From Vulcaniibacterium tengchongense (GTDB lineage Bacteria > Pseudomonadota > Gammaproteobacteria > Xanthomonadales > Xanthomonadaceae): 64,000 bases of DNA. Shown here one piece after another: positions 16,240-25,577 of the stretch. A program made the translations under genes and the position numbers. The notes under the pieces are model-generated. The model worked only from the letters and a program-made list of their open reading frames with translations, made no database searches and was not told the DNA's origin. Each line of letters begins with the position of its first letter. The first letter of the stretch is position 1. The DNA lies in assembly GCF_003814555.1 (NCBI RefSeq), contig NZ_RKQN01000007.1, positions 1 through 64,000 on the forward strand. Reading direction: 5' to 3'.

Positions 16240-18942
16240 ATGACTTCTCTCCACGCCGTCATCAACGACCTCCTGCAGAACGATCCCGATCCGGTCGAGA
16301 CCCGGGAATGGATCGAGTCGATCCAGGCGGTCATCGAGCGCGACGGCGCCCAGCGCGCGCACCAGCTATTGGAAGGCATGGTCGAGGTCACCCGTCGCGC
16401 CGGCGCGTACCTGCCGTTCTCGCCCACCACCGAATACATCAACACCATCCCGCCGCACCTGGAGGCCAAGAGCCCGGGCGACGCCGCGATGGAGTGGCGC
16501 ATCCGCTCGATCATCCGCTGGAACGCGCTGGCGATGGTGGTGCGCGCCAACCGCAAGCCCGGCGACCTCGGCGGCCACATCGCCAGCTTCGCCTCGGCGG
16601 CCACGCTGTACGACGTCGGCTTCAACCACTTCTGGCGCGGCCCCGAGGGCGAGCACCCGGGCGACGTGATCGGCATCCAGGGCCACAGCTCGCCGGGCAT
16701 CTACGCGCGCTCGTTCCTGGAAGGCCGGCTGAGCGAATCGCAGCTCGACCACTTCCGCATGGAGGTCGACGGCCGCGGCGTCAGCTCCTACCCGCACCCG
16801 TGGCTGATGCCCGACTACTGGCAGCTGCCGACCGTGTCGATGGGCCTGGGCCCGATCGCCGCGATCTACCAGGCGCGCAACTGGAAGTACCTCGAAGGCC
16901 GCGGGCTGATGCCGAAGAGCGACCGCAAGGTCTGGGCCTTCCTCGGCGACGGCGAGTGCGACGAGCCCGAGAGCCTGGGCGCGATCTCGGTCGCCGGCCG
17001 CGAGGGCCTCGACAACCTGATCTTCGTCGTCAACTGCAACCTGCAGCGGCTCGACGGCCCGGTGCGCGGCAACGGCAAGATCATCCAGGAGCTGGAGGGC
17101 GTGTTCCGCGGCGCCGGCTGGAACGTCATCAAGGTGATCTGGGGCAGCTACTGGGATCCGCTGCTGGCGCGCGACACCACCGGCCGCCTGCGCCAGCTGA
17201 TGATGGAAACCGTCGACGGCGAGTACCAGAACTGCAAGGCCTTCGGCGGCGCGTACACGCGCGAGCATTTCTTCGGCAAGTACCCGGAGACCAAGGCGCT
17301 GGTCGCCAACCTGTCGGACGAGGACATCTGGCGCCTCAACCGCGGCGGCCACGACCCGCACAAGGTCTACGCCGCCTACCACGAGGCGGTGAACACCAAG
17401 GGCATGCCGACGGTGATCCTGGCCAAGACGGTCAAGGGCTACGGCATGGGCCCGGCGGGCGAATCGCTCAACCCCACCCACCAGACCAAGAAGATGGACG
17501 ACGAGGCGGTGCGGATGTTCCGCGACCGCTTCAACATCCCGGTCACCGACGAGCAGCTCAAGGACGGCCAGGTGCCGTTCTACCACCCCGGCGAGAAGTC
17601 GCCGGAGGTCGAGTACATGCTGGAGCGCCGCAAGGCCCTCGGCGGCTTCCTGCCGCAGCGCCGGCGCAAGGCCACCCAGTCGCTGGAAGTGCCGAAGCTC
17701 GAAGCCTTCGACCGCCTGCTCAAGAGCACCGGCGAGCGCGAGATCAGCACCACCATGGCGTTCGTGCAGGCGCTGAACATCGTGCTGCGCGACAAGCAGG
17801 TGGGCCCGCGCTGCGTGCCGATCGTCGCCGACGAGGCGCGCACCTTCGGCATGGAAGGCCTGTTCCGCCAGCTGGGCATCTACGCCCCGCACGGGCAGAA
17901 GTACAAGCCGGTCGACCGCGACCAGCTGATGTACTACCGCGAGGACGCCGCCGGCCAGGTGCTGGAGGAAGGCATCACCGAGGCGGGCGCGTTCGCGAGC
18001 TGGATGGCCTGCGCCACCAGCTACAGCACCAACGACCTGCAGATGCTGCCGTTCTACATCTACTACTCGATGTTCGGCTTCCAGCGCATCGGCGACGCCG
18101 CCTGGCAGGCCGCGGACATGCGCGCGCGCGGCTTCCTGCTCGGCGCCACCGCCGGCCGCACCACCCTCAACGGCGAGGGCCTGCAGCACGAGGACGGCCA
18201 CAGCCACCTGCTGGCCAGTGTCATCCCCAACTGCCGCAGCTACGACCCCACCTTCGGCTTCGAGGTCGCGGTGATCCTGCAGCACGGCATGCAGCGCATG
18301 CTGGCCGAGCAGCAGGACGAGTACTACTACATCACCCTGATGAACGAGAACTACGCGCACCCGGACATGCCGGAAGGCGCCGCGGAAGGGATCATCAAGG
18401 GCATGTACCTGCTCAAGGACGCCGGCAAGCCGAAGAAGGGCGAGCTGCGCGTGCAGCTGATGGGCAGCGGCACCATCCTGCGCGAGGCGATTGCCGCGGC
18501 CGAGCTGCTGGACAAGGACTTCGGCGTCACCGCCGACATCTGGTCCTGCCCCAGCTTCACAGAGCTGGCCCGCGAAGGCGAGGACGCGGTGCGCTTCAAC
18601 CGCCTCAACCCCGAGGCCAAGGCCTCGCGCAAGCCGTACGTCACCCAGCTGCTGGAAGGCCGCCAGGGCCCGGCGATCGCCGCCACCGACTACGTGCGCG
18701 CGTTCGCCAACCAGATCCGCGAGTTCGTGCCGATGCGCTACACCGTGCTCGGCACCGACGGCTTCGGCCGCAGCGACACCCGCGCCAACCTGCGCCGCCA
18801 CTTCGAGGTCGACCGCTACCACATCGCCCACGCCGCCATCGCGGCGCTGGCGGCGGAGGGCAAGATGACGGCGAAGGATGTGGCGAGGGCGATCAAGCAG
18901 TACAAGCTGGATGTGGACAAGCCCAATCCGCTGACGGTCTGA
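16240..18942 (+). CDS. aceE: pyruvate dehydrogenase E1 component, homodimeric type
   Basis: A 900-aa thiamine-diphosphate enzyme that decarboxylates pyruvate and hands the acetyl group to E2 lipoyl domains. Seen: the N-terminal E2-binding region (MTSLHAVINDLLQ), HIASFASAATLYDVGFNHFW, the TPP-Mg motif GDGECDEPES (~231-240) with the following NCNLQRLDGPVRGN, and the C-terminal third with GTDGFGRSDTRANLRRHFEVD. Length matches E. coli AceE (887 aa). No aceF or lpd follows: the gene ends at a strong terminator and accessory genes begin, so E2/E3 must be encoded elsewhere or were separated by the island. Confidence 0.97.
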   Translation: MTSLHAVINDLLQNDPDPVETREWIESIQAVIERDGAQRAHQLLEGMVEVTRRAGAYLPFSPTTEYINTIPPHLEAKSPGDAAMEWRIRSIIRWNALAMVVRANRKPGDLGGHIASFASAATLYDVGFNHFWRGPEGEHPGDVIGIQGHSSPGIYARSFLEGRLSESQLDHFRMEVDGRGVSSYPHPWLMPDYWQLPTVSMGLGPIAAIYQARNWKYLEGRGLMPKSDRKVWAFLGDGECDEPESLGAISVAGREGLDNLIFVVNCNLQRLDGPVRGNGKIIQELEGVFRGAGWNVIKVIWGSYWDPLLARDTTGRLRQLMMETVDGEYQNCKAFGGAYTREHFFGKYPETKALVANLSDEDIWRLNRGGHDPHKVYAAYHEAVNTKGMPTVILAKTVKGYGMGPAGESLNPTHQTKKMDDEAVRMFRDRFNIPVTDEQLKDGQVPFYHPGEKSPEVEYMLERRKALGGFLPQRRRKATQSLEVPKLEAFDRLLKSTGEREISTTMAFVQALNIVLRDKQVGPRCVPIVADEARTFGMEGLFRQLGIYAPHGQKYKPVDRDQLMYYREDAAGQVLEEGITEAGAFASWMACATSYSTNDLQMLPFYIYYSMFGFQRIGDAAWQAADMRARGFLLGATAGRTTLNGEGLQHEDGHSHLLASVIPNCRSYDPTFGFEVAVILQHGMQRMLAEQQDEYYYITLMNENYAHPDMPEGAAEGIIKGMYLLKDAGKPKKGELRVQLMGSGTILREAIAAAELLDKDFGVTADIWSCPSFTELAREGEDAVRFNRLNPEAKASRKPYVTQLLEGRQGPAIAATDYVRAFANQIREFVPMRYTVLGTDGFGRSDTRANLRRHFEVDRYHIAHAAIAALAAEGKMTAKDVARAIKQYKLDVDKPNPLTV

Positions 18943-19271: not shown

Positions 19272-21128
19272 ATGGCTAACGAGCGCGTGACTGAAGACAT
19301 GGTGGATGACCTGCTGCGAAAGCACGGGTATTACGAGGACCCATATGCTGTGGTTGTTGAAAAACAGCAGTCGGTCATTGAGGCCATTCGAACGGCCCTG
19401 ACTAAAGCTGGAAAGGGTGGAAAGGGCGGGCGGGGCTACCCCGAATTCATCATCACAGCGCCAGACACTCCTGACATGGTTGTGCTGATCGAGTGCAAGG
19501 CTCAGGAAAAGTTTCATGAATCCGCTGATCGCGGAAGGCCCGTCGACTATGCCGTCGACGGTGTGCTTCATTACGCGAGGTTCCTCTCACCGAATTACAC
19601 CGTAATTGCGATCGCGGTTAGTGGTAGCAATAAGTCAAGTCGTTGGTCGTTTATGCTCGTTCCAAAAGGTGAGAACGAGCCGCGTGAACTGCGTTCACCG
19701 ACTGGCGCGCGAATTGAGCGCATGGTGCCACTTTCAGACCTAATCGCCGCTGCGTCATTCGACCCGGCCGTGCAGGCCGGGCGGACGAGAGACTTGATTC
19801 AATTCTCGATGGAGATGCACGAATTCATGCGCGACGAGGCGGAAATGAGTGAGCAGGAAAAGCCGCTCGCCGTCGCCGGAACACTCATTGCGCTTGGCAA
19901 CGACGTTTTCCGAGAGACCTACGACAAGTATCCCGCTGACGAGCTGCCCGCATTCTGGATGCAGACGATCAAAAGAGAAATTACTAAGGCCAAGCTGCCT
20001 GTCGAAAAGGTCGACAATATGACGCAGCCCTTCACCAATATCGAGGTTCAACCTGAGCTGCGCAAGCCCACGAAGGGTTACCCGAAGGGCCTGCTGAACG
20101 AGATCGTGCGGCTCCTCGCTGACCGCGTACTGCCTTTTCTGACGATCTATCACGATTTCGATGTCGTGGGGCAGTTCTACGGCGAGTTTCTCAAATATAC
20201 CGGCGGGGACGGCAAGGGTCTTGGAATTGTTCTGACACCAAAGCATGTGACTGAGCTGTTCGCGCTGATTGCAAATCCGACGAAGGATGATGTGGTCGTC
20301 GACACATGCGCGGGTACAGGTGGGTTCCTGATCTCGGCGATGATGCAGATGGCCAAGACTGCGACGACGAAAGCAGAAATCGATTCGATCAAAAAGCAGC
20401 GGCTCGTCGGCGTCGAACAGCGTGCAGGAATGTATGCGCTAGCTGCATCAAACATGATCCTACGCGGCGACGGTAAGGCAAATCTATATCAGGGCTCTTG
20501 CTTTGACGCAGCGATTACGAAGGCTGTTAAGGCGCACAAGCCAACCATCGGACTCATAAACCCGCCATACGCGAAATCCAAAGAAGACCTCTCAGAATTG
20601 CGCTTTGTCGAACATATGCTCGACACGCTGCAGAAGGGCGGTCTTGGTGTCGCTATTGTTCCTGTGTCTTGCGCCACCGCGCAGTCCCCAGAGAAGCGCA
20701 GCATCATGGAGAAACATACGCTCGAAGCAGTCATGTCGATGCCGCCCGAGGTGTTCTACCCCGTTGGTGTGGTCACTTGCATCATGGTCTTTAGGGCCGG
20801 AATCCCGCACAAAACGTCCGACAAGAAGTCCTGGTTCGGATACTGGCGCGAAGATGGATTCGTGAAGGTAAAGAACCTCGGGCGAATTGACCGTGACGGA
20901 GCTTGGCCAGCCATAAGGGATCGTTGGATCGAGGCGTGGCGCAATCGCGAAGTTCACCCAGGAGAATCAGTGCTGGCAAAGGTGGGCCCTGATGACGAGT
21001 GGGTTGCGGAGGCTTACATGGAGACCGACTACTCAACGCTTACACAGAAGGATCTAGAGAAGGTTATGCTCGACCACGCACTGTTTCTATTGCGTGGCGT
21101 GCAAGATGGCGATGAGGGCGGTGAATGA
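19272..21128 (+). CDS. restriction endonuclease-methyltransferase subunit, BcgI-like (type IIB)
   Basis: A 618-aa fused R-M subunit. N-terminal PD-(D/E)xK nuclease: Pro67-Asp68, five residues, then Glu74-Cys75-Lys76 (PDMVVLIECK), with Glu58 upstream. A helical linker (~170-310) leads to a gamma-class N6-adenine methyltransferase: HsdM-like TPKHV (~322-326), SAM motif DTCAGTGGF (344-352) and catalytic NPPY (430-433). The domain order, size and adjacent specificity gene match BcgI A subunits, which methylate both strands and cut on both sides of a bipartite site. It lacks the ATPase/translocase of type I systems. ATG 19272 follows typical N-termini; an in-frame ATG 34 codons upstream gives an implausible cysteine-rich leader. 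Codon use is AT-richer than the core genome. Confidence 0.85.
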   Translation: MANERVTEDMVDDLLRKHGYYEDPYAVVVEKQQSVIEAIRTALTKAGKGGKGGRGYPEFIITAPDTPDMVVLIECKAQEKFHESADRGRPVDYAVDGVLHYARFLSPNYTVIAIAVSGSNKSSRWSFMLVPKGENEPRELRSPTGARIERMVPLSDLIAAASFDPAVQAGRTRDLIQFSMEMHEFMRDEAEMSEQEKPLAVAGTLIALGNDVFRETYDKYPADELPAFWMQTIKREITKAKLPVEKVDNMTQPFTNIEVQPELRKPTKGYPKGLLNEIVRLLADRVLPFLTIYHDFDVVGQFYGEFLKYTGGDGKGLGIVLTPKHVTELFALIANPTKDDVVVDTCAGTGGFLISAMMQMAKTATTKAEIDSIKKQRLVGVEQRAGMYALAASNMILRGDGKANLYQGSCFDAAITKAVKAHKPTIGLINPPYAKSKEDLSELRFVEHMLDTLQKGGLGVAIVPVSCATAQSPEKRSIMEKHTLEAVMSMPPEVFYPVGVVTCIMVFRAGIPHKTSDKKSWFGYWREDGFVKVKNLGRIDRDGAWPAIRDRWIEAWRNREVHPGESVLAKVGPDDEWVAEAYMETDYSTLTQKDLEKVMLDHALFLLRGVQDGDEGGE

Positions 21129-22096
21129 TGCAGAGACTTGATCGTATCTTTGACTTGCGCTACGGACATTCGCTTGAGCTCAATGCGCTCGTGCGCGTTG
21201 AGCCACCTCAGGGCGTCAATTTTGTATCTCGCTCTTTAAGGAACAATGGTGTATCGGCACGCGTAACCGTAGACGTGGAGCCAGCGCAGGCGGGAGAGAT
21301 TTCGGTCGCGCTCGGGGGAACCCCTCTTGCGTCGTTCGTGCAGCCTGAGCCGTTCGTTTGCGGGCGCGACGTGATGATACTCAGGGCCCGAAATCCCGCG
21401 ATGTCTTTGGCCGAGAAGCTTTGGTGGGCTCGTTGTATTTGGGAAAATCGCTACCGGTACTCCTACGGCCGGCAGGCAAATCGCACTTTAGGCTCGCTGC
21501 TTGTGCCGTCGGAAGTGCCCGATTGGGTGTATTCCGTGCAACTGCCTTCACACGAAGGCCTCGCAAAACCGGCTAGCGACCGTCGCCCCTTCATCGATCC
21601 TACCGGGCCTGGATGGCGCGATTTTGCGCTGCAGGATCTCTTCGACATCGTGAAGGGGCGGCGCGTAACGAAGGCCGACCGAACGGCGGGCACTACAAGA
21701 TTCGTGGGCGCTAGCGAAAGCAACAACGGGATTACAGACCTCGCTGACCTTCCTCCCATCTTTCCGGCCGGGACGCTAACCGTTGTGTATAACGGGAACA
21801 GCGTTGGAAACGCGTTCTATCAAGATGAACCTTACTTTGCGTGCGACGATGTCAACGTGTTGATGCCTAAGCACGCCATGTCTCGTTGGGTTCAACTATT
21901 TATTGCAGCGGTAATCAAGCATGGAAGGACGCGATTCACTTATGGCTATAAGTGGACGCTGGCGCGAATGAAGGCGACAACCGTACGCCTGCCTGTGGAC
22001 AAGCAGGGTAAGCCCGACTTCGCCTATATGGAGGACTTTATGAGGGGTTTGCCCTTTAGTGCAGCTGTCGAGGCCGCGGCCAAAGCGAAGGAATAG
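21125..22096 (+). CDS. specificity subunit of the BcgI-like R-M system
   Basis: A 323-aa S-type subunit overlapping the nuclease-methyltransferase gene by 4 bp (ATGA), so synthesis is likely coupled. Two target-recognition regions can be told apart: an N-terminal half starting LDRIFDLRYGHSLELN, and a second starting WRDFALQDLFDIVKGRRVTK (~182-201), each followed by a helical spacer. The C-terminus (KQGKPDFAYMEDFMRGLPFS) is a signature of BcgI-type and related S subunits. Length fits BcgI B (~340 aa). It should recognise a two-part DNA sequence whose identity cannot be read from the protein. No stop or frameshift, so the system appears intact. Confidence 0.85.
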   Translation: MMQRLDRIFDLRYGHSLELNALVRVEPPQGVNFVSRSLRNNGVSARVTVDVEPAQAGEISVALGGTPLASFVQPEPFVCGRDVMILRARNPAMSLAEKLWWARCIWENRYRYSYGRQANRTLGSLLVPSEVPDWVYSVQLPSHEGLAKPASDRRPFIDPTGPGWRDFALQDLFDIVKGRRVTKADRTAGTTRFVGASESNNGITDLADLPPIFPAGTLTVVYNGNSVGNAFYQDEPYFACDDVNVLMPKHAMSRWVQLFIAAVIKHGRTRFTYGYKWTLARMKATTVRLPVDKQGKPDFAYMEDFMRGLPFSAAVEAAAKAKE

Positions 22097-22211
22097 TGGT
22101 CCGAACAAAAAGGGGCAGAGTGGACCGCTCCAAAACAGGAGTAAAAACACGGGTCGTAGTGCACTTTCTCCGAGCGTGGGGTAGTCCTGTCAGCGCGGAG
22201 TGGGCGGGCCT

Positions 22212-22239
22212 CAGAAGATGGGGTCCAGAAGATGGGGTC
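22212..22239. repeat. 14-bp perfect tandem repeat
   Basis: CAGAAGATGGGGTC occurs twice back to back (22212-22225, 22226-22239). The second copy runs into AGGTTCATTTTC, which recalls the ends of REP-associated tyrosine-transposase elements in xanthomonads. Confidence 0.7.
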
Positions 22240-22524
22240 AGGTTCATTTTCTTCGTCAGGCGTGGAAACAGGGATCAGAGCGGGTGTCCGGTTCGCGCGA
22301 TGTCGTTCGATGCTCGAAGCCCCTTCAGTCAGGCTCCTCAGCTCCACTCCTGAACCTTGAAGCCTCACAGCCGAGGCCAAAAGTCCCGGTGCCGGGGCTG
22401 CCTGGCTCACCATCGAGGCTATGAGCTTCACGCATGAGGCCGCGAGCCCCGGCGATCCGGCTCCAAAGCTCCGTTGCGAGGCAAGACGCCCCGTTGCCGC
22501 GGCTAAAAGCGTCACGCATGAAGC

Positions 22525-22569
22525 AAAAAGCCCGGCGGCCGAGGCTTCGGGCTCATCCGCCGGGCTTGA
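22525..22569 (-). terminator. intrinsic terminator of the 155-aa gene
   Basis: Read on the minus strand: AAGCCCGGCGG (22567-22557), an 18-nt loop, CCGCCGGGCTT (22538-22528), then a T-run. An 11-bp perfect stem 36 bp after the stop of the gene at 22605. Confidence 0.85.
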
Positions 22570-22604
22570 ATGCTCTTCGCCGCCTCTGTCAGGCGGCCAG
22601 CCGG

Positions 22605-23072
22605 TCAGTCCGCCAGCGCCGGGTCCTTCGCCCTGGCCTGCCTGGCGAACCGCGCCGACAGCTCGCGACGGGCGCTCTTCAGCGCTTCGCCCTTGCCGGC
22701 CACCTTCAGCAGGGCATAGCCCTCCAGCGCCACGCCCATCACGTCGCTGCCCAGCGCCAGCTCGGTGTCAGCTGCGCGCTCGGCGAGCTGGCGCAGCTTC
22801 TCCAGGCGCGGGCGCAGGGCGTCGAGCGCGGCCAGGTCGGCCATGGCCTCGGACAGGCCCAGGCTCGGCGGTACCACCTGCGGGTTGTTGGACAGCAGCG
22901 TCAGCGTCTGCCGGCAGAACGCCTCCGACTTGTCGCCCATCTTGGTGAGGTCGCGCCGCTGCTGGGCGGTCAGCGCTACGCCGCGGCCGAGCACCGACTG
23001 GATCGTGGCCAGCGCGCCATCGAGCGCTTCCATGTCGGCCGGGGTGAGGTCGATCGATACGAGGTTTTGCAT
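22605..23072 (-). CDS. conserved-looking hypothetical protein (155 aa)
   Basis: Starts at ATG 23072 with a GGAGCA ribosome-binding site 5 bp upstream. A soluble, largely alpha-helical protein rich in Ala/Leu ([20 protein letters not shown] at the N-terminus), with no cysteine-rich or catalytic motif I recognise. Its codon use is GC-rich like the core genome, unlike the R-M genes beside it, so it may be resident sequence or from a high-GC donor. A strong terminator follows. It sits between the R-M pair and a modification-dependent nuclease, but nothing in the sequence ties it to defence. Confidence 0.75.
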   Translation of the reverse strand: MQNLVSIDLTPADMEALDGALATIQSVLGRGVALTAQQRRDLTKMGDKSEAFCRQTLTLLSNNPQVVPPSLGLSEAMADLAALDALRPRLEKLRQLAERAADTELALGSDVMGVALEGYALLKVAGKGEALKSARRELSARFARQARAKDPALAD

Positions 23073-23284
23073 CGCAGTGCTCCTTGCTTCCGTTTGCGAG
23101 TCCGGAAATGGCCGGACGGTCCATGCGCCACCGCGATCCGTGCGGGTAGACCTGCCGCCGGGTGGCGGTGGTGCGGGAAAAGTGTCGCAGCGGCCGTGGA
23201 GCGAAGCCAGAGGTCGCCGATGACGGCCTGAGAAAGGTGCCGGACAGTTAGACCCTACCTCGGTGGCGGCAATCATCAGAAGCA

Positions 23285-23309
23285 GGAGTCAGAGTGAATT
23301 TTCCGAAAG
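23285..23309. repeat. REP-transposase-associated-like motif
   Basis: GGAGTCAGAGTGAATTTTCC plus CGAAAG. The first part resembles the 22234 copy (GGGGTCAGGTTCATTTTC). It covers the last codons and stop of the small secreted protein gene. Confidence 0.45.
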
Positions 23310-23690
23310 ATCCCTGCACCTGACCCAGTTGTGTTGCTGGTCGCGAAGTTGTTCCCACCCATTGGCGAGCCGCCGCATCGCCGTTCCGCCAACGCAGGCG
23401 AGTCCCGTGCGTTTGGCCTCCGCGCTGCCATAGGCAGGCAGGAGATAGACCTTCGTAGAGGGGCGTGGCTTGCCGAGAATCTTCGCGACGGCCTGCGCGT
23501 TGCGGGCTTCCTGGTTGTTACAGAAGTCCCGAAGGATCGGTGCGATCCAGCTTCGTGTCTTCGCAATCGTCAGCCGTTCGCATTGAAACGGCGTGGTGTC
23601 TGCGGCGCTCGAGGCGGGAGCGAACAAGCAGCTACCGCAGGCAAGCGCGGCCGAAAGTCGGAGCGACAGTAACGACAAGCGAGTCTTCAT
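23289..23690 (-). CDS. small secreted protein of unknown function (133 aa)
   Basis: ATG at 23690. Sec signal peptide (LRLSAALACGSCLFAPASSA, cleavage ~residue 29), giving a ~104-aa periplasmic or exported product with cysteines in FQCERL, DFCNNQE, GLACVGG and VRCRD: four in all, so two disulfides are possible. No family recognised. The stop codon falls inside a repeat-like motif, so the C-terminus may have been altered by that sequence. Size and export would suit an immunity or inhibitor protein, but no cognate partner is visible. Confidence 0.65.
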   Translation of the reverse strand: MKTRLSLLSLRLSAALACGSCLFAPASSAADTTPFQCERLTIAKTRSWIAPILRDFCNNQEARNAQAVAKILGKPRPSTKVYLLPAYGSAEAKRTGLACVGGTAMRRLANGWEQLRDQQHNWVRCRDLSENSL

Positions 23691-23736
23691 AGGTATCGTC
23701 CATGAGGAAAGGCGTTGTTGCGAAGTTCTCCACTGG

Positions 23737-24681
23737 CTAGGCGGCCTTCATGGCAAACAGCTTTCTGTGATGCTGCAGGAACGTGCTCTGCTGGGGATGG
23801 AACTTGCCAATGTTGGCCCTCGGATCGACGGACCAGCGGTCCAGCACGTCTCGCGGCAATGACGGGTGGACGAGCATCTTCCCGTCGTCCTCAAACGAGA
23901 TCAGCCGCTCGTCAAACAGAGCATCCACGTGCGGCGACAGCATGATTCCGTTGTAGCCATTGACGCGCTCGGCATTGGTCGAGTCGCGCCATGGCTTGAT
24001 GTGGCTGGCGATCAGCAGGCGCGTGTCTTCGACGCCGGTCACTTTGCAGCGCGGTTCCACCAGCATCACGCGCTTGCGGAACAGGCCTTGGCCGATGCGG
24101 GCCTTGGCTAGCTGCAGGCGCTGGGTTTCAGGGATCGTCGCGTCGCCTTGGATGTCGTGCAGGTCGTCGAGGACTTCGGCGTCGGGCTCGATGTCATGGA
24201 CGAAGGCAGGCGTCGTAAACGTGGGCTGCGCTTCGACTTCGAGCAGCGCCAGCAGCAGGTGACCGAGGGCATCGGAAATGCCGGCGAGGTAGCAGCCTTG
24301 ATTGCCGTTGCCGTTCTTCTGGATCGGGGAGTACCTCGCGGGCAGCATCGGTGCGATGGCCGCGATGTGGTCCTTGGGCTGGAGCGGCTTCGGCGCGGGC
24401 GCGAAGTACACGCTGACCAGCCAGCCTTCGTCCGACCAGTAGTCGCCGACGTTGCCGAACTCAGTGGGCTTGGGGCTGGCGGCGGCGGCTTCGACGACCT
24501 GCCCGATGTAGGCGATGCGCCCGAAGGCATACGAGAACACCACATCGCCCGGCTTCACCAGCCGCATGTTCTCGTAGGTCTGATTGAAGGTGCGGTTGGC
24601 GTTGCGCATGGGCGACCACAGGTAGCCGCCACGCACCTCGTGGTCACGAGTCTGCTTGTGGTTGACCCACCAGAACGCCAT
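23737..24681 (-). CDS. EVE-HNH modification-dependent (type IV-like) endonuclease
   Basis: A 314-aa protein. The N-terminal ~145 residues form an EVE/PUA-like domain (FWWVNHKQTRDHEV, a YLWSP loop, VKPGDVVFSYAFGRIAYIGQ), a fold that flips and reads modified bases. The C-terminal ~110 residues are an HNH nuclease of the HNH_2 type: Cys-x-VTG (~212-216), ASHIKPW with His227, then NGYNGIMLSPHVD with Asn241/244 and His251. This architecture is known from type IV restriction enzymes that cut DNA carrying modified cytosines. ATG 24681 is chosen because MAFWWVNHKQ is the usual family start and GGGGGAAG lies just upstream. The frame stays open further upstream into a gene remnant. Confidence 0.85.
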   Translation of the reverse strand: MAFWWVNHKQTRDHEVRGGYLWSPMRNANRTFNQTYENMRLVKPGDVVFSYAFGRIAYIGQVVEAAAASPKPTEFGNVGDYWSDEGWLVSVYFAPAPKPLQPKDHIAAIAPMLPARYSPIQKNGNGNQGCYLAGISDALGHLLLALLEVEAQPTFTTPAFVHDIEPDAEVLDDLHDIQGDATIPETQRLQLAKARIGQGLFRKRVMLVEPRCKVTGVEDTRLLIASHIKPWRDSTNAERVNGYNGIMLSPHVDALFDERLISFEDDGKMLVHPSLPRDVLDRWSVDPRANIGKFHPQQSTFLQHHRKLFAMKAA

Positions 24682-24939: not shown

Positions 24940-25313
24940 TCACCCGACCACGGCCGAGTTGTACAACATGTGGGCGTACTGCCGGACGTACATGGAACAA
25001 GGACCAGAAGGGTTGCCGACGTATCCGCCGCGACGGCAGGAGATCACGTTCCGACGCAGCTTGTTCGAGCATATCCGCTTCCTGGACCCCACCGAGGAAG
25101 GGCGGGAGGTGCGTGCGCGCATGACCGTATGGGACTGGGGCATCAATATTCCGATTTTCCTGGCGGGGTTCTGGCTGATGATTCCGGCGGGCATCGGCCA
25201 CTACATCGCGATGCGCTTCGCACCGGAAGTGAAATGGCCGCCGGAGATCGACGCCGAATCGTGCCGCGGTCCCTTGCATCCGGCGGAGGCTGCATCCGCC
25301 GCGGGAGGTTGCG
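24929..25313 (+). pseudogene. remnant of a T6SS-associated membrane protein (DUF6708-like)
   Basis: A plus-strand frame after a TGA (24926-24928) reads TTAELYNMWAYCRTYMEQ, then PTYPPRRQEITFRRSLFEH, then a hydrophobic helix (INIPIFLAGFWLMIPAGIG). This looks like the C-terminal part of the DUF6708 membrane proteins often found beside VgrG/PAAR genes in xanthomonads. There is no plausible start codon with a ribosome-binding site, the upstream half is missing, and near 25260 the sequence stops looking like that protein although the frame stays open. It abuts the oppositely oriented remnant at 24939, a likely rearrangement junction. The DUF6708 assignment is from memory of family features. Confidence 0.45.
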
Positions 25314-25577
25314 ATGTCGAAGCCTTTCATCGTCGTCGGCGACAAGACCGACCACGGCGGCACGGTGCTGACCGGTTCGGCGGAGACGGACCTCTACGGC
25401 AAGCCGGTGGCGCGGATGGGCGACCCGGTGCAGTGCCCGAAGTGCCAGGGCACCTTCCCGATCGCCAGCGGCGACGCGAGCTTCATCGTCGACGGCCGGT
25501 CGCTGGCGCGGCACGGCGACAAGACCGCCTGCGGCGCCACCCTGATCGCCGGGCAGTCGCAGGCGTTCGTGGGCTGA
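25314..25577 (+). CDS. PAAR-domain T6SS spike-tip protein
   Basis: An 87-aa PAAR protein, which caps the VgrG needle as a zinc-stabilised cone. Seen: repeated G-x-P-V-A-R-x-G-D-like turns (GKPVARMGDPV), the metal-binding residues His in TDHGG, CPKC, and His/Cys in RHGDKTACG. A good ribosome-binding site (GGGAGG, 7 bp) precedes the ATG. It has no C-terminal toxin extension, so effectors would be separate. In this window it is an orphan: the VgrG tail lies 25 kb away and the flanking sequence consists of remnants, so it may be left over from a second T6SS cargo locus. Confidence 0.9.
   Translation: MSKPFIVVGDKTDHGGTVLTGSAETDLYGKPVARMGDPVQCPKCQGTFPIASGDASFIVDGRSLARHGDKTACGATLIAGQSQAFVG

Follow-up and report, generated by a model that had tools for sequence, protein, structure and literature searches.

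The region 3' of aceE is very probably a variable site of the family, which is Xanthomonadaceae/Lysobacteraceae-like judging by its proteins, at which unrelated defense genes come and go, and the RM system, the EVE-HNH nuclease, and the small protein p155 with its repeat array found there are best regarded as separate from one another. The window, meaning the whole 64,000-nt stretch of Vulcaniibacterium tengchongense DNA that was analyzed, had received a first-pass annotation that read these genes as one island. The genes it named (for the RM, S, EVE-HNH, 155-aa, and 133-aa proteins) are real and intact and lie where it placed them. The features of the region are as follows.

16240-18942, + strand: aceE (pyruvate dehydrogenase E1), which is conserved and anchors the variable site on the left
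19272-21128, + strand: type IIB-like (BcgI-like) RM fusion of an N-terminal PD-(D/E)xK nuclease and a gamma N6-adenine methyltransferase, 618 aa
21125-22096, + strand: S (specificity) subunit, its two homologous halves being two target recognition domains, 323 aa; overlaps the RM stop
about 22290-22530, - strand: degenerate 21-nt-period array, its unit like GAGGCTTNNNGCCTCATGCGT on this strand, with autocorrelation at lags 21 and 42
22608-23072, - strand: p155, an uncharacterized 155-aa protein, predicted to be all-helical and multicopy in the family
23292-23690, - strand: small 133-aa protein with a start that by eye resembles a signal peptide; no family match
23740-24681, - strand: EVE-HNH modification-dependent nuclease of the VcaM4I type, 314 aa; matches PDB 6yex over its full length
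24950-25318, + strand: 3' remnant of a DUF6708 (T6SS-linked) gene with its 5' half missing, the right edge of the variable region

Two nucleases of known kinds

Judged by their sequences, both nucleases are intact and belong to already known kinds of phage-cutting system. The RM fusion is covered from residue 4 to 602 by the PADLOC type IIG profile PDLC03608 (E 2.8e-107) and is matched by a second PADLOC profile, PDLC03602 (E 1.8e-65), and by the Pfam N6_Mtase domain PF02384. Its nuclease signature reads PEF..D68..E74-C-K76, NPPY lies at residue 430, and P57, E58, D68, E74, K76, and NPP 430-432 are invariant across five close relatives. In the S subunit, Methylase_S PF01420 matches the second half at 163-307 (E 2.7e-14), the PADLOC profiles PDLC03594 and PDLC03591 also match, and a type II specificity profile spans 7-307. 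Moreover, S-subunit halves cross-match between relatives (L061, L063, and L131), which fits the expectation for two target recognition domains. No gene for an ATP-dependent translocase was found between aceE and the PAAR gene, either in the gene list or by profile search. The locus thus shows what marks a type IIB system: a nuclease and an N6-adenine methyltransferase in one polypeptide, a separate S subunit with two target recognition domains, and no translocase.

The closest known systems are BcgI and other two-subunit type IIB enzymes (PMC3874165), and the structure of one of these, BsaXI, is available (PMC11997821). The likeness lies in the RM fusion with a separate S subunit of two recognition halves, in the PD-(D/E)xK and gamma N6-adenine methyltransferase motifs, and in the lack of an adjoining translocase gene. 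What sets the system in the window apart is its location in the chromosome of a proteobacterium, the closest relatives found being actinobacterial. RM and S may work as a type IIB system in the form (RM)2S, which would methylate adenine in a bipartite site and cut unmethylated DNA on both sides. The predicted structure of the RM protein (pLDDT 42) can be used only up to about residue 165, where the elements are ordered as in PD-(D/E)xK nucleases, and a Foldseek search with it was uninformative.

The EVE-HNH protein matches VcaM4I (PDB 6yex) from end to end (E 5.1e-83). On its own the EVE domain scores under the Pfam cutoff, and thus the EVE assignment depends on the VcaM4I match. VcaM4I has a pocket of P24, W82, and Y130, a wedge at Q128, and an HNH site of H224, N241, and D250 (PMC7897488). 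All seven have counterparts in the window protein (P24, W82, Y131, Q128, H227, N244, and D253), and by alignment and residues it is, as in the VcaM4I type, an EVE domain with an aromatic base pocket fused to HNH. Architecture and length also agree, and the one difference noted is a one-residue insertion ahead of the pocket tyrosine, Y131. Profiles, the 6yex match, and the kept residues therefore bear out both the BcgI-like and the EVE-HNH assignments of the first-pass annotation. The window protein would flip and read modified cytosine and then cut such DNA. Gene content and residues were observed directly; from them we infer the enzymatic activities and a role in phage defense.

No clash between RM methylation and the EVE-HNH nuclease is expected from sequence, since VcaM4I reads 5mC and 5hmC (PMC7897488) and the host genome holds no C5-cytosine methyltransferase of PF00145 (the profile control was positive in 10 of 14 genomes). 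On the same grounds the earlier argument that the neighbors do not conflict holds. The absence of PF00145 is also what one would expect if the EVE-HNH protein cuts 5mC DNA. The methyltransferase search covered PF00145 and PF02384, and the RM protein is the sole PF02384 member of the host genome.

The site after aceE and its residents

What follows aceE differs from relative to relative. A homolog of aceE, 80 to 93% identical, is present in nearly all family relatives searched, and the genes 3' of it vary. After aceE, genome G022 carries a 1009-aa protein, p155, and an EVE-HNH gene; G027 carries type I S and M subunits, a PrrC-like gene, a gene judged lipoprotein-like by eye, and p155; G005 carries an HNH gene weakly like PtuB, plus p155; and G029 carries a SocA-like gene and another HNH nuclease. 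Thus, p155 holds the site in three other genera (G005, G022, and G027), next to different nucleases. Moreover, the same genes follow aceE at a distance of 792 nt in G008, 3.1 kb in G013, and 5.4 kb in G005, where the HNH gene and p155 occupy the extra interval, and these shifted distances support an insertion site. Against it, an empty site bearing both of the window's flanks was seen in none of the relatives. We note that the 1009-aa protein of G022 (L096 4774-7803), which matches nothing in Pfam or PADLOC, lies between aceE and p155, the position of the RM genes in the window.

The right edge of the variable region is marked by a broken gene. The DUF6708 remnant matches positions 111-200 of its profile only, and the frame upstream is interrupted by stops. 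Across 24950-25577 the truncated DUF6708 gene is followed by an intact PAAR gene, and the two look like a T6SS-linked pair interrupted where the variable region ends.

The RM system and the EVE-HNH nuclease look, from their sequences, like two separate arrivals, because they rarely co-occur and because RM is actinobacterial-like and low in GC3 whereas EVE-HNH has relatives in the same family. Co-occurrence was sampled in 80 relatives and then in 199 family genomes, and of the latter 18 carry EVE-HNH, 2 carry RM, and only the genome studied here (G000) carries both. The nearest relatives of the RM protein are actinobacterial (69-72% identity to Gordonia, Arthrobacter, and Rothia proteins), and proteins of its type also occur on plasmids, as found by plasmid search. 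The EVE-HNH protein shares 76-78% identity with proteins from four same-family genomes among the 199 searched. The two differ in strand as well as in GC, which is 55-57% for the RM genes; GC3 is 0.63 for RM and S, compared with 0.86 for EVE-HNH, 0.93 for p155, and 0.97 for aceE. Distribution and composition are thus observed, and separate acquisition events would account for them: the RM system would have been acquired on its own, closest to actinobacterial versions, and p155 with its array would be an older resident, part of neither nuclease system. Both the donor and the order of acquisition are putative. Two further observations count against this reading, namely, that neither an integrase nor a tRNA nor flanking direct repeats turned up at the site and that EVE-HNH and p155 are neighbors in both G000 and G022.

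Cooperation would be the simple reading of adjacency. The two systems lie within 5.4 kb, both are intact, and no clash between them is predicted, such that RM could block unmodified DNA and EVE-HNH hypermodified DNA in a two-layer island that includes the 155-aa and 133-aa proteins. We consider this highly improbable. No second genome among the 199 has both nucleases, which removes the single paired island of the first-pass annotation, and the ancestry and strand of the two differ. No pairing was found at 13 other loci of either nuclease: EVE-HNH, p155, and the 133-aa protein were absent near BcgI-like genes at all 7 loci examined, and RM, p155, and the 133-aa protein were absent near other EVE-HNH genes at all 6. 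The recurrence that would mark a conserved paired defense island was therefore seen neither in the 199 genomes nor at those 13 loci. The two middle genes had also been suggested as parts of the locus. For p155 the suggestion is not supported, as it lies mostly far from either nuclease and its homologs, sought near EVE-HNH and BcgI-like genes, turned up at none of those 7 and 6 loci, the adjacency in G022 excepted. The 133-aa protein is likewise absent beside the same loci. The island had been staked on the middle genes not being kept at this site in relatives that lack both systems, and the relatives come close to showing just that: the 155-aa gene follows aceE beside other nucleases in G005 and G027 and also in G022, though there with EVE-HNH.

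That last arrangement raises a smaller pairing, in which EVE-HNH and p155 would be functional partners, such as nuclease and regulator, and RM a later neighbor. The two genes are adjacent, on one strand, and at the same site after aceE in G000 and G022, and between these genomes EVE-HNH is 75% identical and p155 70% identical. Against this, the six other EVE-HNH loci examined are without p155, four genomes with EVE-HNH carry p155 elsewhere (G357, G472, G407, and G394), and most p155 copies have no HNH neighbor. We rate it the least probable of the readings considered. In our favored reading of a variable site with separate residents, the nucleases add to the cases in which defense genes accumulate at one variable position, in this instance 3' of aceE, and the window warns that cooperation should not be inferred from adjacency.

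The 133-aa gene is a minor presence. Homologs of its protein occur in only 3 of 60 relatives, and no family matched it. At its 3' end a short motif, GGAGTCAGAGTGAATTTTC, lies at 23285-23303, and a related motif occurs near 22235.

p155 and the 21-nt-period arrays

We judge the defense genes to be ordinary and p155 with its array to be the part worth attention. What would matter more is that gene and array recur together, with strong statistical support, no relative so far known, and no explanation found. The AlphaFold model of p155 is all-helical (pLDDT 85.5), and an alignment of 14 sequences has a mean column identity of 64%. The gene occurs in 65 of the 199 family genomes, with up to 12 copies per genome and many fragments and stops. 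Beyond the family there were one marginal match in a phylum sample (E 7e-4) and two relatives in another family of the order. Searches of Pfam, NCBIfam, PHROGs, and PDB gave no match, nor did Foldseek with the model. An origin as a phage or plasmid gene was rejected on the absence of matches in PHROGs, PLSDB, and IMG/VR, and the search for a conserved partner ended with no gene constant among the neighbors of p155 loci.

The array, which the first-pass annotation did not mention, begins in the window just past the terminator-like hairpin of the p155 gene. It is the only copy in the genome, and Rfam gave no match to the window region up to E 1. Downstream of p155, a period-21 score above 0.17 was found in 44 of 86 loci (76 distinct), at a threshold set after the first scan was viewed but with a large gap to the controls; with eight other periods, 0 to 2 of the same 86 loci pass. 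Of the distinct loci, 73 had sufficient sequence, and 37 of these have an array downstream of p155 (46 at a threshold of 0.13), compared with none of 219 triplet-shuffled controls, and in seven p155 loci the array lies upstream instead. Across 811 kb outside p155 neighborhoods there were six arrays, a background that predicts about 0.5 arrays across the 73 loci. One of the six is beside a p155 remnant (L097), two have a p155 gene about 2 kb away (L122 and L127), and one is inside the aceE coding sequence (L112). All array counts refer to fetched stretches of the genomes.

Many loci have units of their own, and dyad symmetry is frequent among the units, with arms of about 5 nt roughly 10 and 11 nt apart. 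A 21-bp period is two helical turns and suggests double-stranded DNA as the form in which the array acts, although a coding or RNA role is possible too. In an RNA-hairpin test, arms paired within units at 0.667, hardly above the 0.639 reached after arms were swapped between units; a P value of 0.004 was obtained, but it carries a bias, the dyad center having been placed by within-unit pairing. A literature search on 21-bp arrays found nothing relevant. Iterons, CRISPR, and the RNA repeats of type III toxin-antitoxin loci are tandem-repeat gene systems. The p155 loci resemble these in setting a small gene beside short repeats of fixed period, and they differ in that their arrays are 21-nt, degenerate, locus specific, and mostly after the gene and in that the protein is without known relative; we claim no membership.

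We tentatively propose, as a possibility rather than a preferred outcome, that p155 and its array together make up a single genetic unit with two parts, of a kind not described before. Its parts would be a small helical protein and that protein's own array of dyad sites, helically phased and specific to the locus, on which the protein may act or by which it may be controlled, and the unit would have spread over many chromosomal loci of the family and often decayed. It is unlikely that the array arose as a heptad-coding repeat, or as a side effect of a terminator, and lacks any functional link to p155. Such an origin draws on the fact that 21 nt is seven codons, that a coding heptad array scores in the same scan (L065), that open frames are common across arrays, and that arrays start at the terminator-like hairpin. 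The units differ by locus and encode no common peptide, however, and the failure of every triplet-shuffled control also counts against it, as does the excess at p155 loci over the 811 kb elsewhere, where three of the six arrays are themselves at p155 loci.

Arrays also follow p155 at L098 9790-10060, L126, L127, L153, L155, L157, L180, L197, and L201. GAGGC arms are common to the four aceE-site arrays and recur in one array elsewhere (L157), and thus they are weak evidence for common descent of the aceE-site arrays. Flanking GGGTCAG motifs were considered as ends of a mobile cassette and rejected (1.4 versus 1.0 per 10 kb). Similar 21-nt-period arrays stand at L105 15478-15919 and L115 9913-10396 with no recognizable p155 adjoining. 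Finally, at L097 13210-13989 a 3' remnant of p155 is followed by an array beside type I RM genes, and an intact p155 without an array lies 1.7 kb away.
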